A stretch of 64,000 bases of DNA from NCBI GenBank assembly GCA_022773945.1, contig JALFNS010000037.1, positions 1 through 64,000 of the forward strand, in the 5' to 3' direction. How positions within the stretch are numbered: position 1 is the stretch's first letter; each line of letters starts with the position of its first letter. The stretch comes from Clostridiales bacterium (GTDB lineage: Bacteria; Bacillota; Clostridia; Peptostreptococcales; Anaerovoracaceae). Made by a program: the position numbers and the translations under genes. Below, in pieces: positions 48,691-53,468 of the stretch. The notes under the pieces are model-generated. The model ran no database searches, was not told the origin of the DNA, and was given only the letters and a program-made list of their open reading frames with translations.

Positions 48691-48715
48691 CCAGCCGGCT
48701 TAATCAGCCGGCTGG
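48691..48715 (-). terminator. Terminator hairpin overlapping the end of dapB
   Basis: CCAGCCGGC pairs perfectly with GCCGGCTGG. On the minus strand the 5' arm encodes the last codons of dapB and TGCCTTTATTT follows, a modest T-run. It also lies just after the comEC stop. Confidence 0.65.
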
Positions 48716-49365
48716 AGAATGTCATCCAGAGAGTAGAATCCCGGAGAGGTTTTCATGTTCAGTGCTGCCTTGACAGCGCCTGTGGCGAAGATTCTTCTGC
48801 TCTGTGCGTGGTGTTCTATTGTAATCTGTTCGTTGTCCCCGAAGAAGGTAACTGCGTGTCTTCCCGCTTCGGTGCCGCCGCGGAGGGCGTGAACGCCTGA
48901 GATTCTGTCGCTGCCGCCCATATCCTCTATGAGAGTTTTGGCAGTGCCGCTGGGAGCATCGAGCTTCTTCTTGTGATGAGCTTCAACAACCTCTGCGTCC
49001 CAGTCCTCTTCACTGAGCAGGCTGCATGCCAGCTTCAGAAGCTTTCTCATCGTATATATTCCGTATGAATAGTTGGAACTGTAGAGAACGGGAATTTTTG
49101 CTGAAGCGGCCTTCATTGCATTCATCTGGTCATCGCTCAGTCCTGTAGTTCCGCATACAAGAGGGATGCCGCGCTCCAGCGCGTAGGCGAGAGCTCCGTC
49201 ATGGCTGTCTGCAGTGGCGAATTCGATAACTATGTCCGGAGATCCATTGGAGATTTCTCCGCTGATATCGATAACGCTTGCAACACGTATACCTTCTGTA
49301 CCGTTTATGACGTTTTCGATTTCGTGGCCCATGCGGCCGTAGCCGTATATCGCTGCTCCTAACAT
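48700..49365 (-). CDS. dapB: 4-hydroxy-tetrahydrodipicolinate reductase
   Basis: 221 residues, shorter than the usual 245-270, a size seen in some Clostridia. NAD(P)H-binding GYGRMGHE near the start, VIEFATADSH, VCGTTGLSD, SSNYSYGIYTM, EVVEAHHKKKLDAPSGTA with the catalytic His and Lys, and the late AQSRRIFATGAVKAAL. It reduces the DapA product towards lysine. It overlaps dapA by 7 bp and ends in a terminator. Confidence 0.94.
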   Translation of the reverse strand: MLGAAIYGYGRMGHEIENVINGTEGIRVASVIDISGEISNGSPDIVIEFATADSHDGALAYALERGIPLVCGTTGLSDDQMNAMKAASAKIPVLYSSNYSYGIYTMRKLLKLACSLLSEEDWDAEVVEAHHKKKLDAPSGTAKTLIEDMGGSDRISGVHALRGGTEAGRHAVTFFGDNEQITIEHHAQSRRIFATGAVKAALNMKTSPGFYSLDDILQPAD

Positions 49366-50243
49366 TCAATTCCTGCCTTTCTCATAGACTCTCTCAGTCT
49401 GCTGACATGTTCCTCGGTGGCGTGCCAGAGAGGTCTTCTGTATCCGCCTACATTCATACCCATAATGTTCATTGCTTCCTTTATCATGATAGGATTTACC
49501 TCGATGAATAGGTCCTTGATCAGAGGCATGAGTCTGAGCTGCTCGGCTGTGGCTGCCTGTGCGTCTCCGTTGAGGTAGGTCATTACCATATCGTGGGTCT
49601 CCTTAGGCATCATGTTTGCCAGCACTGATATCACGCCGCTTCCGCCCATGGAGAGAATCGGGAGAATCATATCGTCGTTGCCGCTGTAGATGGCGAAGTT
49701 CTCGTTCGCCAGGTGAGCTATCTCAGCCACATAGGACATGTTGCCGCTGGCTTCCTTGATGCCTGTGATTCTGTCGTGCTGAGCCAGCTCCTCGAGGATT
49801 TCAGCCTTGATGTTTATGCCTGTTCTTCCCGGAATGTTGTAGATGATTTCAGGAATCTCGATGGCATCCGCAACGTCGGCGAAGTGATGGTACATTCCCA
49901 TGTCATTCGCCTTGTTGTAGTACGGCGAGATGTTGAGAATGGCATCTGCTCCCAGATCCTGGAGCATGAGGCTCTTCTCTATAACCGTATCAGTGCTGTT
50001 GGATCCGCTGCTGGCGATAACCGGAATTCTGCCGTTGACACGGTTAACCGTGAACTTGCAGATGTCACAGTCCTCCTCGTGTGACATGGTCGGGGACTCG
50101 CTTGTCGTTCCCAGAATGAGGAGGGCGTCGGTATCGTTTTCCAGATGGAAGTCTATAAGCTGTCCGAGCACGTCGAAATTAACCGATCCGTCTTCGTCAA
50201 AAGGTGTGATTAATGCTACTATTGATCCTGTGATTCTTTCCAT
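49359..50243 (-). CDS. dapA: 4-hydroxy-tetrahydrodipicolinate synthase
   Basis: 294 residues. A TIM-barrel aldolase joining pyruvate and aspartate semialdehyde. Seen: GSIVALITPFDEDGSVNFD, LGTTSESPTMSHEE (GTTGE-type loop), YNIPGRTGINIKAE with the catalytic tyrosine, and the Schiff-base lysine in ITGIKEASGN. Commits aspartate carbon to lysine and cell-wall DAP. Often inhibited by lysine. AGGAG lies ahead of the ATG. Confidence 0.95.
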   Translation of the reverse strand: MERITGSIVALITPFDEDGSVNFDVLGQLIDFHLENDTDALLILGTTSESPTMSHEEDCDICKFTVNRVNGRIPVIASSGSNSTDTVIEKSLMLQDLGADAILNISPYYNKANDMGMYHHFADVADAIEIPEIIYNIPGRTGINIKAEILEELAQHDRITGIKEASGNMSYVAEIAHLANENFAIYSGNDDMILPILSMGGSGVISVLANMMPKETHDMVMTYLNGDAQAATAEQLRLMPLIKDLFIEVNPIMIKEAMNIMGMNVGGYRRPLWHATEEHVSRLRESMRKAGIEC

Positions 50244-50278: not shown

Positions 50279-51544
50279 TTATTCAACGTCCAGATTCATC
50301 ATGTCCTCGTAGGTCTCGCGTCTCAGAACGAGACGGTGTGAGCTTCCATTGATGAAGACTACCGGTGGACGACCGAGTCTGTTGTAGTTTGATGCCATGC
50401 TGTATCCGTATGCGCCTGTGGCGTGAACGAGCAACAGGTCGCCGGGGAAGGTTTCGGGAAGCCGGGCTTCCTTGATGAGGATGTCTCCCGATTCGCAGCA
50501 TTTGCCTGCCAGAGTGTATGTTCTGTCCGGCGCCTCATCGTTTCTCGTTATGTTGCGGCAGGTGTATTCCGCTTCGTACAGGGCCGGCCTGATGTTGTCG
50601 GCCATACCGCCGTCGATGAAGACGTACTCCCTGGAATCGGTGGATTTGCGGCATCCCGCCGTGTAGAGAGTGTAACCGCTGTCACCGACAATGCTTCTGC
50701 CCGGTTCTATCATCAGGCGCTTCAGCGGCAGATTGCGGCGGGTCACTTCCTCCTCGCAAAGGCTTATGATCCTGCGGCACACACTTTCTGTGGATGGCGG
50801 GTTGTCTTCATGGGTGTATCTGATGGCGAAGCCGCCGCCCAGATCAAGATCTCTTACATCTATACCGTGCCGGTCATGCATCATGCCTATGAATTCGAAC
50901 ATCACGCGGATTTCCATGGCGAAGGCCTCGGATTCGAGAATCTGGGAACCTATATGTGAGTGAAATCCTGCGAAGGTCAGGTAAGGGCAGGCTTCAATTA
51001 TATTGACCATGGAGATTATGGCATCGGTCTTATCGATTGAGATGCCGAATTTGGAGTCCTTGGTCGCTGTGGCTATGTACTCGTGAGTGTGAGCCTCAAC
51101 TCCCGGGTTCAGCCTGATGAGAATGTCCATAGGCTGCTTCAGGCTGTTGGCGATGCTTCTTACCAGCTTCAGCTCGTCCTCGTTGTCCACGATGATGTGA
51201 CCGTGTCCCAGTCTGAAGAAATCTTCTATTTCTCCCGGGGTCTTGTTGTTTCCGTGAAAATGTATCCGCTCCGCGGAGGCTCCGGCCTTTGCGAGACAGT
51301 ATATCTCACCGCCGCTTACGGCGTCGAAGTGGAGACCTTCCTCCATGGCGATTCCGGCGATGGCTGTGCAGAGGAACGCCTTGGACGCGTAGAGCACTGC
51401 GGTTTCGAATATGTCGGAACGGAAATTTTCCGTGTAGGCTCGCATGGTCTGTCTTATGGCGTCCTCATCATATACCATGAGAGGCGTTCCGTATTCACCG
51501 GCAAGCTCCTTCAGCAGAGAAGGATCGGGGTAAGTTAATGACAT
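50279..51544 (-). CDS. lysA: Diaminopimelate decarboxylase
   Basis: 421 residues. PLP enzyme converting meso-DAP to lysine. The PLP lysine is in VLYASKAFLCTA, HFHGNNKT follows, IGSQILE, and the conserved VGDSGYTLYT and AGKCCESGDIL near the C-terminus (CESGD motif from the second subunit). It is 10 bp from ddh and 35 bp from dapA. GGAGGA precedes the ATG. Confidence 0.95.
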   Translation of the reverse strand: MSLTYPDPSLLKELAGEYGTPLMVYDEDAIRQTMRAYTENFRSDIFETAVLYASKAFLCTAIAGIAMEEGLHFDAVSGGEIYCLAKAGASAERIHFHGNNKTPGEIEDFFRLGHGHIIVDNEDELKLVRSIANSLKQPMDILIRLNPGVEAHTHEYIATATKDSKFGISIDKTDAIISMVNIIEACPYLTFAGFHSHIGSQILESEAFAMEIRVMFEFIGMMHDRHGIDVRDLDLGGGFAIRYTHEDNPPSTESVCRRIISLCEEEVTRRNLPLKRLMIEPGRSIVGDSGYTLYTAGCRKSTDSREYVFIDGGMADNIRPALYEAEYTCRNITRNDEAPDRTYTLAGKCCESGDILIKEARLPETFPGDLLLVHATGAYGYSMASNYNRLGRPPVVFINGSSHRLVLRRETYEDMMNLDVE

Positions 51545-51554
51545 GTTATCCTCC

Positions 51555-52532
51555 TTATATCATCCTTTCGAGAAGGCTGCGGCTGTCTGTCTGAATCAGG
51601 TATGAAGGGGCGATGTCCGCCATTGTTATGCAGCCTGTTCTGCCTTCGCTTCGCATTCTGTACACGGCTCTTGCTGCCGAAACAAGCACGCTGCCTGTGA
51701 AGTAAGGGTTGGAGTCGAGCTTGAGGCTGTATTCGATAATATTGTTGTACTCCTCGGCTGTTCTGCCCGAGTGGAGAACGAATCCGCCGTGTGCCATGCT
51801 GCTGTGGTTTCTGTCAAGCTCCTCCTGGGAAATGAAGTGGACCGTGGTATCGTAATCGGAGAAGTAGTTCGGCATGTTCACTATCTGCTCGCGAATAGCT
51901 TCGGTATCGGCGCCTTCTTCTGCGACAACGTAGCATTCTCTGGTGTGCTTCTGTCTTGTTGTCAGTTCGGGAGTCTCGCCGGCTCTGATCTGTTCGAGAG
52001 CTTCCTCTACAGGAAGTGTATACTGTCTGGCGTCGGCAACACCATCAATTCTCCTGATAGCATCCGAATGACCCTGGGAGAGACCTTTGCCCCAGAAGGT
52101 GTATGTTGTGCCTCCCGGCAGTGCGGCTTCCGCATATACTCTGTTTATTGAGAAGAGACCCGGGTCCCAGCCGCAGGATATGGCTGCCAGAGTGCCTGCT
52201 TCTTCGGCTGCCGCCTGTGTCTCGTCGAAGTGCTGCAGAATTTTAGCATGGGTATCGAAGCTGTCCACCACGTTGAACATGGAGGCGTAGAGCGGTGTCT
52301 GGCCCATGAGATCGTTGGCGCTGCCGCCGCAGAGAATCATAACATCGATACTGTCCCTGTATTCCGGAGCCTTATCGGCACTGAGAACTGGAACACCCTC
52401 CGTTGCGATTTCCACAGTCGCAGGATCTCTTCTCGTGAAGACTGCCGCGAGCGTCATGTCGCTGTTTCTTGTAATCGCGTTCTCCACGCCTCTTGCCAGA
52501 TTGCCGTAACCCATAATTCCGATTCTTATCAT
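51555..52532 (-). CDS. ddh: meso-Diaminopimelate dehydrogenase
   Basis: 325 residues. NADPH enzyme that aminates tetrahydrodipicolinate to meso-DAP in one step, bypassing the acyl branch. The NADP loop IGIMGYGNLARGVE, CGGSANDL, DSFDTHAKI, and ISCGWDPGLFSINRV with FWGKGLSQGHSDAIRRI are all characteristic. First gene of ddh-lysA-dapA-dapB. AAAGGTGG is 6 bp before the ATG. It lies behind a long structured leader ending in a terminator. Confidence 0.95.
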   Translation of the reverse strand: MIRIGIMGYGNLARGVENAITRNSDMTLAAVFTRRDPATVEIATEGVPVLSADKAPEYRDSIDVMILCGGSANDLMGQTPLYASMFNVVDSFDTHAKILQHFDETQAAAEEAGTLAAISCGWDPGLFSINRVYAEAALPGGTTYTFWGKGLSQGHSDAIRRIDGVADARQYTLPVEEALEQIRAGETPELTTRQKHTRECYVVAEEGADTEAIREQIVNMPNYFSDYDTTVHFISQEELDRNHSSMAHGGFVLHSGRTAEEYNNIIEYSLKLDSNPYFTGSVLVSAARAVYRMRSEGRTGCITMADIAPSYLIQTDSRSLLERMI

Positions 52533-52558
52533 GTTTGTCCACCTTTCTTCTGAATAAT

Positions 52559-52589
52559 AAAAAATATCGCCGCACTGTCATGCGACGAT
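52559..52589 (-). terminator. Attenuator terminator upstream of ddh
   Basis: On the minus strand AUCGUCGCA (52589-52581) pairs with UGCGGCGAU (52574-52566) over UGACAG, nine pairs with one G-U, then A and six U. It lies 27 bp before ATG 52532. Confidence 0.85.
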
Positions 52590-52689
52590 ACCAGAATCTC
52601 AACTGATAGCAATTTTTCTAAACATCGTCACATGAGCAATCAAAGTGCATCTCCCCATGAAACGATGTTGTTGTTTCAAAGGCAGATGT

Positions 52690-52731
52690 CTAAGGTTTGC
52701 TCTGTTTCAACGAATTAAAAATTGTCATCAT
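52690..52731 (-). CDS. Possible leader peptide of the ddh operon (13 residues)
   Basis: ATG ATG ACA start, reading MMTIFNSLKQSKP and a TAG stop, so two lysine codons close to the end. AAGGAG lies 12 bp upstream (a bit long). The stop codon is one base from hairpin H1, so a ribosome paused at or near the stop would mask the left arm of H1. Translation is plausible, not proven. Confidence 0.45.
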   Translation of the reverse strand: MMTIFNSLKQSKP

Positions 52732-52765
52732 GTTTTTTACTAACTCCTTTTTCTTAACTGGGCTC

Positions 52766-52794
52766 ATTTTAGCACCGTGAAAACCGGCTGTCAA
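52766..52794 (-). promoter_or_regulatory. Sigma-A promoter of the ddh operon
   Basis: On the minus strand TTGACA (52794-52789), a 17-bp spacer and TAAAAT (52771-52766). Transcription would start near 52759. Confidence 0.85.
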
Positions 52795-52868
52795 GAAAAA
52801 ATTGTGACAAACAACAAAAAAACTCAAAACTTTTTATTAACTGCAAACACCCTGTTGAAGGGGGCAAT

Positions 52869-52898
52869 AAAAAAGGACCGTCATTGGCTGGACGGTCC
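52869..52898 (-). terminator. Intrinsic terminator after the 25-residue peptide gene
   Basis: GGACCGTC pairs with GACGGTCC perfectly around an 8-base loop, followed by six T on the minus strand (and A-rich sequence on the other side). Confidence 0.9.
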
Positions 52899-52929
52899 AG
52901 AAAAAAATAGGTGAATTTTTTATCTTTGA

Positions 52930-53007
52930 CTATCTTCCGTAAACAACTAAATCAATCAGCATAGCAGCGTCCTTAATTGTTTCAACGATTGAATTTACAG
53001 CTTTCAT
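52930..53007 (-). CDS. Small 25-residue amphipathic peptide
   Basis: Starts MKAVNSIVETIKDAAM and ends LIDLVVYGR before a TAG stop. Hydrophobic residues (V4, I7, V8, I11, A14, A15, I18, V21, V22) recur in helical spacing with Lys, Glu and Asp between, giving an amphipathic helix of about zero net charge; no cysteine. AGAGGG is 6 bp before ATG 53007. It has its own consensus promoter and a strong terminator, so it is a complete transcription unit of about 180 nt. No family recognised; candidates are a signalling or pore-type peptide, or a type I toxin. Confidence 0.6.
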   Translation of the reverse strand: MKAVNSIVETIKDAAMLIDLVVYGR

Positions 53008-53055
53008 TAATATCCCTCTTTTCCTTAATTGCTGTTTTTCTTCCTTACAGCTATA

Positions 53056-53084
53056 AGTATACTGTTTATGTTGTTGTTTGTCAA
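53056..53084 (-). promoter_or_regulatory. Consensus promoter of the 25-residue peptide gene
   Basis: On the minus strand TTGACA, a 17-bp spacer and TATACT. The bases before the -35 and the early transcript resemble those of the ddh promoter about 290 bp away. Confidence 0.85.
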
Positions 53085-53276
53085 GGAAAAAACGGTACTA
53101 ACTTGCTGTATTAAGCTCAAAAAACACCGCAAACTGGTATATTAGTATTCTGAATTGCGTGATAAATACCCCAAGTTATGATGGTTATAAAATCTTAAAT
53201 CCCAGTAAATTCAAGGGTTTCGGGAATTATTGCCGTTGGGGCGCTTAAAAAAAGAAATGTGTACTTCTTTGCGCAG

Positions 53277-53468
53277 CTATTTCGTCTTTATCAGTTTGTA
53301 GAGAAACCAGACGGTTACAACGAGTCCGACGATACCCAGAGCCGCTCCCGAGGCCTGAGAGTGTCCTGAGAAGTAACCGTTGTAGTAGCCCAGCCCGGTT
53401 ATGGCAACCACCATGCCCAGAGCGCAGCAGATTGTATACAGAAGCTTTTTGCCGTAATTCATATCCAT
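53277..53468 (-). CDS. Small two-helix membrane protein (63 residues)
   Basis: Hydrophobic stretches at about 9-26 (LLYTICCALGMVVAITGLG) and 42-58 (ALGIVGLVVTVWFLYKL), ending LIKTK. GGGAGG lies 3 bp before ATG 53468, or 9 bp before the in-frame ATG 53462, which is the better spaced start. No family recognised. A run of seven T after an AAAGAA/TTTCTTT hairpin just past the stop (near 53250) could serve as a terminator. Confidence 0.6.
   Translation of the reverse strand: MDMNYGKKLLYTICCALGMVVAITGLGYYNGYFSGHSQASGAALGIVGLVVTVWFLYKLIKTK

Follow-up and report, generated by a model that had tools for sequence, protein, structure and literature searches.

A model of attenuation, as in the Escherichia coli trp operon, is treated in an article whose accessible sections do not mention lysine (PMC1183508). 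Other papers deal with histidine leader peptides in bacilli, where sensors have been exchanged between species (PMC2965389), ilv leaders in Staphylococcus and Listeria (PMC5794164, PMC5864092), and actinobacterial attenuators together with the LEU element before leuA (PMC1262725). For lysine genes, the accessible text of the last paper names the L-box riboswitch as an RNA control, describes attenuators for other amino acids and reports no conserved RNA structures before actinobacterial lysine operons. Among the matches listed from the literature and Rfam, with subscription papers mostly outside the scope, none was an attenuator that couples a lysine leader peptide to a terminator switch.

We analysed the leader before ddh in a 64 000-nt stretch of a Clostridiales genome (contig JALFNS010000037.1, hereafter the window; its genome is G000). 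With trp-type attenuators it shares a short open reading frame (ORF) with cognate codons, an ORF strand that is predicted to pair with segment 2, a segment 2 that can pair with the terminator 5′ arm, an intrinsic terminator and a cognate biosynthetic operon. It differs from them in its lysine codons and in a conserved 41-nt hairpin that follows the stop codon immediately and separates the ORF strand from segment 2, and its known occurrence is so far limited to four genomes of a single Bacillota genus. Like the L-box (RF00168), which relatives have ahead of ddh or in the vicinity of lysA, the leader would control lysine genes, but the window contains no RF00168 and the one elsewhere in G000 precedes a Na+/H+ antiporter family gene. 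In the LEU element, as far as the accessible part of PMC1262725 describes it, cognate leader codons likewise pair with a downstream regulatory strand and a pseudoknot was proposed; that element concerns another amino acid and another phylum, and the partner of its codon run is the Shine-Dalgarno box of leuA, whereas that of the ddh-leader codons would be the antiterminator strand. The ddh leader has a partial parallel in SEP5 of Sinorhizobium meliloti, for which a leader peptide containing Thr and Lys codons before an aspartate-related gene has been suggested; SEP5 has six Thr and three Lys codons, however, and the accessible text of PMC10117765 offers it as a suggestion and describes no antiterminator/terminator switch. 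The lysine-codon attenuator is thus most likely a variant of a well-known kind whose specificity we did not find described.

Layout of the operon and its leader

All features of the operon lie on the minus strand of the window: ddh (meso-diaminopimelate dehydrogenase, 51555..52532, TIGR01921), lysA (diaminopimelate decarboxylase, 50279..51544, TIGR01048), dapA (49359..50243, TIGR00674) and dapB (48700..49365, TIGR00036). The four proteins all score above the cut-offs of their curated NCBIfam models. DapB is short (221 aa), and the better of its two TIGR00036 stretches covers profile positions 71–177 of 270.

A sequence-only reading of this DNA had described a promoter, a hairpin (H1), a 12-pair antiterminator and a 9-pair terminator with a U6 tail in front of ddh, all of which we recovered. 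The promoter, TTGACA-17-TAAAAT with a TG preceding the second hexamer, lies at 52766..52794 (11/12 matches), and promoter-like boxes were read by eye at the same place in three relatives (G027, G016 and G063). The leader between promoter and ddh, which starts at 52532, is about 230 bases long. Absent from that reading were a leader ORF and its pairing with the downstream part of the leader, the tail. A Shine-Dalgarno sequence AAAGGAG (52750-52744) is followed by the ORF at 52690..52731 (alternative start 52728), whose DNA, ATGATGACAATTTTTAATTCGTTGAAACAGAGCAAACCTTAG, encodes MMTIFNSLKQSKP and whose stop codon ends one base ahead of H1.

Within the K-Q-S-K codons of the ORF (segment A), the 5′ arm of a predicted helix P1, ACAGAGCAA (52697..52705), faces the 3′ arm TTGCTC-A-TGT (52630..52639) at the start of tail segment D. 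Folding of the whole leader adds a predicted helix P0, in which CAATTTTT and CGTTG in the early leader codons (52708..52724) pair with AAAAATTG and CGATG (52610..52627), respectively. H1 (segments B and C, 52648..52688) forms 14 pairs in 16 positions around a 9-base loop; in folds of three of the four genomes, segment C (AACATCGTTTCATGGG, 52654..52669) can pair with the tail instead of with segment B. The antiterminator joins its 5′ half in segment D (52635-52624) to its 3′ half, segment E (52589-52578), by 12 pairs including one G-U, and segment E overlaps the 5′ arm of the intrinsic terminator (52559..52589). The 9-pair terminator stem, ATCGTCGCA/TGCGGCGAT, also has one G-U and is followed by one A and T6 ahead of ddh. 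Over the 148 nt from 52707 to 52560, the predicted fold was more stable than 200/200 dinucleotide shuffles (z −4.1).

At the gathering score, Rfam matched only a tRNA in the whole window, with no RF00168 and no T-box, and a T-box search of 52450-53300 at a relaxed threshold gave no match. What Rfam models matched weakly at the relaxed threshold in and around the leader (a snoRNA, two microRNA models and, on the other strand, Phe_leader) fell far short of the cut-offs and was rejected. The leader thus matches no known Rfam family, in agreement with the earlier reading of it as a candidate new element. One of the weak microRNA-model matches draws the outer GAGCAA/UUGCUC pairing, which is part of P1.

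Relatives carrying the leader

Among 49 genomes of the genus, four including G000 carry a convincing copy of the leader, one per genome and each before ddh or lysA. Strong DNA-search matches besides the window were those in G027, where the leader precedes ddh (contig JAQXIX010000038.1, a Bacillota MAG), and in G016, where it directly precedes lysA. The G016 leader-lysA unit and a ddh (64% identical) are on different contigs (C59 and C54), so that the leader there stands before lysA and not before ddh. A covariance model (R1) built from the window, G027 and G016 copies only was then the means by which the fourth copy was found, in G063, at 33.9 bits; it precedes ddh and lysA, a context that is not part of the model. 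Over the 49 genomes R1 gave five matches at E ≤ 1, of which the fifth (G061, E 0.22) adjoins an apparent response-regulator gene, judged by eye, and was dropped. Over 18 lysA loci of the genus, G063 was the sole match.

Searches with R1 over 393 genomes of the order, where G063 was not among the matches, and with a second model, R2, over 349 genomes of the family and 391 of the class yielded no convincing copy beyond the known four; these searches used strict filters and scored few candidates per genome, and diverged relatives may escape them. Weak matches were dropped in G346, a near-perfect palindrome, and in G038, G680 and G699, which by eye were not ahead of recognisable lysine genes. A search across relatives, as the sequence-only reading had proposed, gave a leader before ddh or lysA in 4/49 genomes of the genus; over 100 ddh loci (L105-L107 left out) R1 gave two weak matches (E 0.27 and 3.3). 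In a rough scan for Lys-rich leader ORFs, 10 of 81 ddh upstream regions were flagged; two of them (L028 and L131) hold this same leader, and four of the remaining eight have a common sequence resembling the final part of some other protein. In L038 and L083, small ORFs with Lys codons were also seen close to T-runs upstream of ddh.

Coding evidence for the leader ORF

The window peptide MMTIFNSLKQSKP has as its counterparts MTQIFNKVNIGKQSKR, MSMIFNMVNIKKQSKKP and MYNLQFTAFNKKCGKP in the relatives. The Shine-Dalgarno sequence, start, frame and stop are retained in all four genomes, from which translation is predicted, and wherever the three close copies differ by a gap, it spans whole codons. 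The stop codon varies (TAG, TGA, TAA and TGA) and lies 0-1 base ahead of H1 in every copy. Lysine makes up 12 of the 58 leader-peptide residues after the start, compared with 135/3352 (4.0%) in ten window proteins (binomial 3e-6, for copies that are related to one another). With G016 and G063 alone, so that two lineages are counted, it is 7/31 (p 2e-4), an excess that is modest when set against the local intergenic AAA/AAG frequency of 7.4% (p ∼0.007), and the window ORF has two Lys codons only. Lys codons flank the P1 arm in 4/4 copies despite changed middle codons (KQSK versus KCGK), and the peptides end in Lys-Pro-stop in three copies and Lys-Arg-stop in G027.

Conservation and covariation of the helices

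Covariation was counted in an alignment of the four leader copies (A4), three of which are close to one another; the 10 rows of another alignment (A3) included reverse-strand and chance matches. Three of the A4 rows had supplied the structure of the model to which A4 was fitted, and its counts therefore lean towards that structure, with the G063 row serving as the independent test. Among seven counted pairs of P1, three were changed on both sides, two were invariant, one was changed on one side and one was broken in G063. H1 had one two-sided change, one one-sided change and 12 invariant pairs among its 14. The combined covariation score of P1 and H1 was reached by 0/500 column shuffles, while a measure of further pair types was not above the shuffles, with 500/500 as high for P1/H1 and 367/500 for the terminator. 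In the terminator 36/36 cells were paired and four of the nine pairs were changed on both sides, a count reached by 15/500 shuffles and a score reached by none of 500. The antiterminator was paired in 97.8% of 45 cells with two two-sided changes (52/500 shuffles as high). The mutually exclusive antiterminator and terminator that the sequence-only reading had seen before ddh are kept in three relatives with two-sided changes.

That reading had also taken an H-type pseudoknot between the H1 loop and the tail as the OFF state, and had named covariation of the loop-tail and antiterminator pairs as a check. The antiterminator has its two two-sided changes; the loop-tail pairing has none. The loop AACATC is indeed complementary to GATGTT at 52626-52621 in the window, but among its six pairs in A4 there was no two-sided change, 83% of the lettered cells pair, and G063 has gaps in all six loop columns. 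The complementarity is real in the window but is not conserved as a pseudoknot, and we rejected the pseudoknot OFF state as the main mechanism, given the lack of any two-sided change in the loop-tail pairs and their absence from G063, the most diverged of the copies. Since P1 covaries and the loop-tail pairing does not, the OFF state is better explained by pairing of the codons with the tail through P0 and P1. The alternative pairing of the H1 3′ arm (segment C) with the tail showed no two-sided change in A4 either. The H1 arms are identical in three genomes and its upper part is shortened in G063; this conservation, which goes beyond what pairing needs, is only partly explained and is the least explained part of the system.

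Folding tests of the switch

When the leader was folded as far as the terminator loop, the minimum-energy structure in 4/4 genomes had the codons and the tail paired so as to enclose H1, and it lacked the antiterminator. With the ORF free, the mean pair probability of the core antiterminator was 0.23, 0.00, 0.00 and 0.03 in the window, G027, G016 and G063, respectively, compared with medians of 0.999, 0.954, 0.99 and 0.995 when the ORF was dinucleotide-shuffled. Only 1, 0, 1 and 1 of 300 shuffles, in the same order, left the antiterminator as low, and the ability of the coding strand to block the antiterminator is accordingly not due to chance.

In equilibrium folds with a ribosome placed on a C-terminal Lys codon, the antiterminator probability was predicted to be 0.83-1.00 in 4/4 genomes. 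In the window and G063, every ribosome position along the ORF frees the antiterminator, so that the Lys codons do not stand out by folding alone and amino acid specificity there must come from timing and release. A ribosome at the stop codon still leaves the antiterminator favoured (0.94, 0.57, 0.76 and 0.78 in the window, G027, G016 and G063), which implies that the OFF state requires ribosome release or kinetics; it is less favoured than with the ribosome on Lys codons in 4/4 genomes.

When the ribosome was placed at the stop codon before the terminator arm was made, the tail was held upstream with a probability of 0.88 in the window, 0.85 in G027 and 0.88 in G016, and 16, 0 and 5 of 300 shuffles of the covering segment, respectively, did as well. 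A ribosome on the first control Lys codons left the tail almost free (0.07 in G027 and 0.11 in G016), and one on the last such codon had it held once more (0.85 and 0.87). In G063 the value with the ribosome at the stop codon was 0.32, at chance level (183/300 shuffles as good). Because G063 gives no support and covariation is lacking, we keep this second lock only as an inference.

Model of the switch and alternative explanations

There is a genuine transcription attenuator before ddh, most likely of the lysine-codon, ribosome-mediated type. The best reading, to which we assign a probability of about 0.72, is a trp-type attenuator that senses charged tRNA-Lys. RNA polymerase would transcribe a leader with a 13-codon ORF ending Lys-Gln-Ser-Lys-Pro-stop, which is presumably translated. 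When the ORF is free, its ribosome released or never loaded, the codons would pair with the tail via P0 and P1 with H1 between them, the antiterminator would be blocked and the terminator would halt transcription. When charged tRNA-Lys is scarce, a ribosome would linger on the Lys codons and mask the P0/P1 strand, and the released tail would pair with the terminator 5′ arm and let ddh-lysA-dapA-dapB be transcribed. Kinetics would probably play a part. In three of the four genomes, a ribosome that has reached the last Lys codon or the stop codon would disrupt the 5′ side of H1, and the 3′ side may then bind the tail again before the terminator arm has been transcribed, as a possible second OFF lock that would resemble trp logic plus an added hairpin. 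Comparison of the copies supports the ORF, P1, antiterminator, terminator and gene context of this scheme, and lysine is its probable signal. The sequence-only reading was right to take the leader of the lysine/DAP operon for a transcription attenuator and to guess, beside DAP, at lysine, the likely signal; where it left the choice between a ligand and leader-peptide translation as what shuts the operon, the evidence favours translation, and a metabolite aptamer is not needed to explain the leader.

Such an aptamer, formed by H1 and the tail, would bind lysine, DAP or a related compound and thereby favour the terminator, the ORF being incidental or constrained only as RNA. The H1 arms, identical in three genomes in spite of LysA proteins that in the two relatives share only 74-76% with that of the window, look like a target of sequence recognition, lysine genes lie downstream, and the sister genome G033 uses a lysine riboswitch. 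We nevertheless consider a metabolite riboswitch unlikely, given that sequence change in the ORF has spared its Shine-Dalgarno sequence, start, Lys codons, frame and stop position, that the loop-tail pairing is absent and upper H1 shortened in G063, and that the leader has no Rfam match. Equally unlikely in our estimate is a dual sensor, the joint claim that H1 adds to a Lys-codon attenuator a sequence-specific site for lysine, another metabolite or a protein and that the system arose by exchange with the lysine riboswitch; if it were true, the operon would read both tRNA-Lys charging and that additional signal.

The position-independence of the equilibrium folds in the window and G063 is what one would expect if any slow or stalled ribosome on the ORF antiterminated and lysine were not special. 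Against such a general translation sensor, Lys codons stand at both ends of the P1 arm in 4/4 copies, and in all four genomes the single convincing copy lies ahead of lysine genes; we regard it as a little less probable still than a riboswitch. An arrest peptide is highly improbable: like TnaC, the nascent Lys-Pro-stop (Lys-Arg-stop in G027) would stall at the stop codon on a small molecule. Lys-Pro ahead of the stop in 3/4 copies, the fixed position of the stop 0-1 base 5′ of H1 and the antiterminator that remains favoured with a ribosome there would suit it, but G027 ends in Lys-Arg, the peptides vary elsewhere, and a ribosome at the stop gives a weaker antiterminator than one on the Lys codons in 4/4 genomes.

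Lysine riboswitches in the genus

If the lysine-codon attenuator stands in place of the relatives' L-box, it would be a clear natural replacement of one RNA sensor by another within one genus, and one that contrasts the sensed signals, free lysine for the L-box and charged tRNA-Lys for the attenuator. The sister genome G033 has RF00168 before ddh (82.9 bits). There are 23 lysA-like places in 22 genomes of the genus, and RF00168 was found in the fetched stretch of 11 of the 16 lysA loci scanned. The other five loci were those of G063, which has the leader described here, G005 and G072, which have no RF00168 near lysA, G069, where it lies at the edge of the lysA locus, and G012, where none was found. 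A whole-genome scan detected RF00168 in at least 23 of the 49 genomes, a lower bound in that the scan missed a copy in G024 (L145, 53.4 bits) seen in the lysA-locus scan.

In the LysA tree, the three close carriers of the leader group together (96/98) with G033 as their sister (99/97), and G063 falls outside on a long branch (82/73). This placement requires two changes of the leader label, and the history may have involved two gains, one loss or a transfer.

Among the four carrier genomes, G000 and G027 each have one RF00168, G016 has two and G063 none, and it never lies on the contig of the leader. Na+/H+ antiporter family proteins of the PF03553 type are L-box targets. In both G000 and G027 the RF00168 precedes such a gene; in G000 the riboswitch and the gene are at 2322-2493 and 626-2224 of L161, respectively (contig C40, minus strand). 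The window genome may therefore combine two kinds of lysine control, an L-box before the antiporter-family gene, whose product may move lysine, and a leader peptide before the biosynthesis genes, so that import and synthesis may answer to different signals.

A separate short gene near the leader

Another short gene was seen on the minus strand at 53084-52875, with a strong promoter (TTGACA-17-TATACT), a ribosome-binding site and its own terminator. Its ORF (53007-52930) encodes 25 residues, MKAVNSIVETIKDAAMLIDLVVYGR. DNA matches to this gene were found in 7 other genomes among the 49 of the genus searched, and in six of these seven a related peptide, 23-35 aa long, could be read, with the copies of G027, G016 and G063 lying off the contig that carries the lysine leader.
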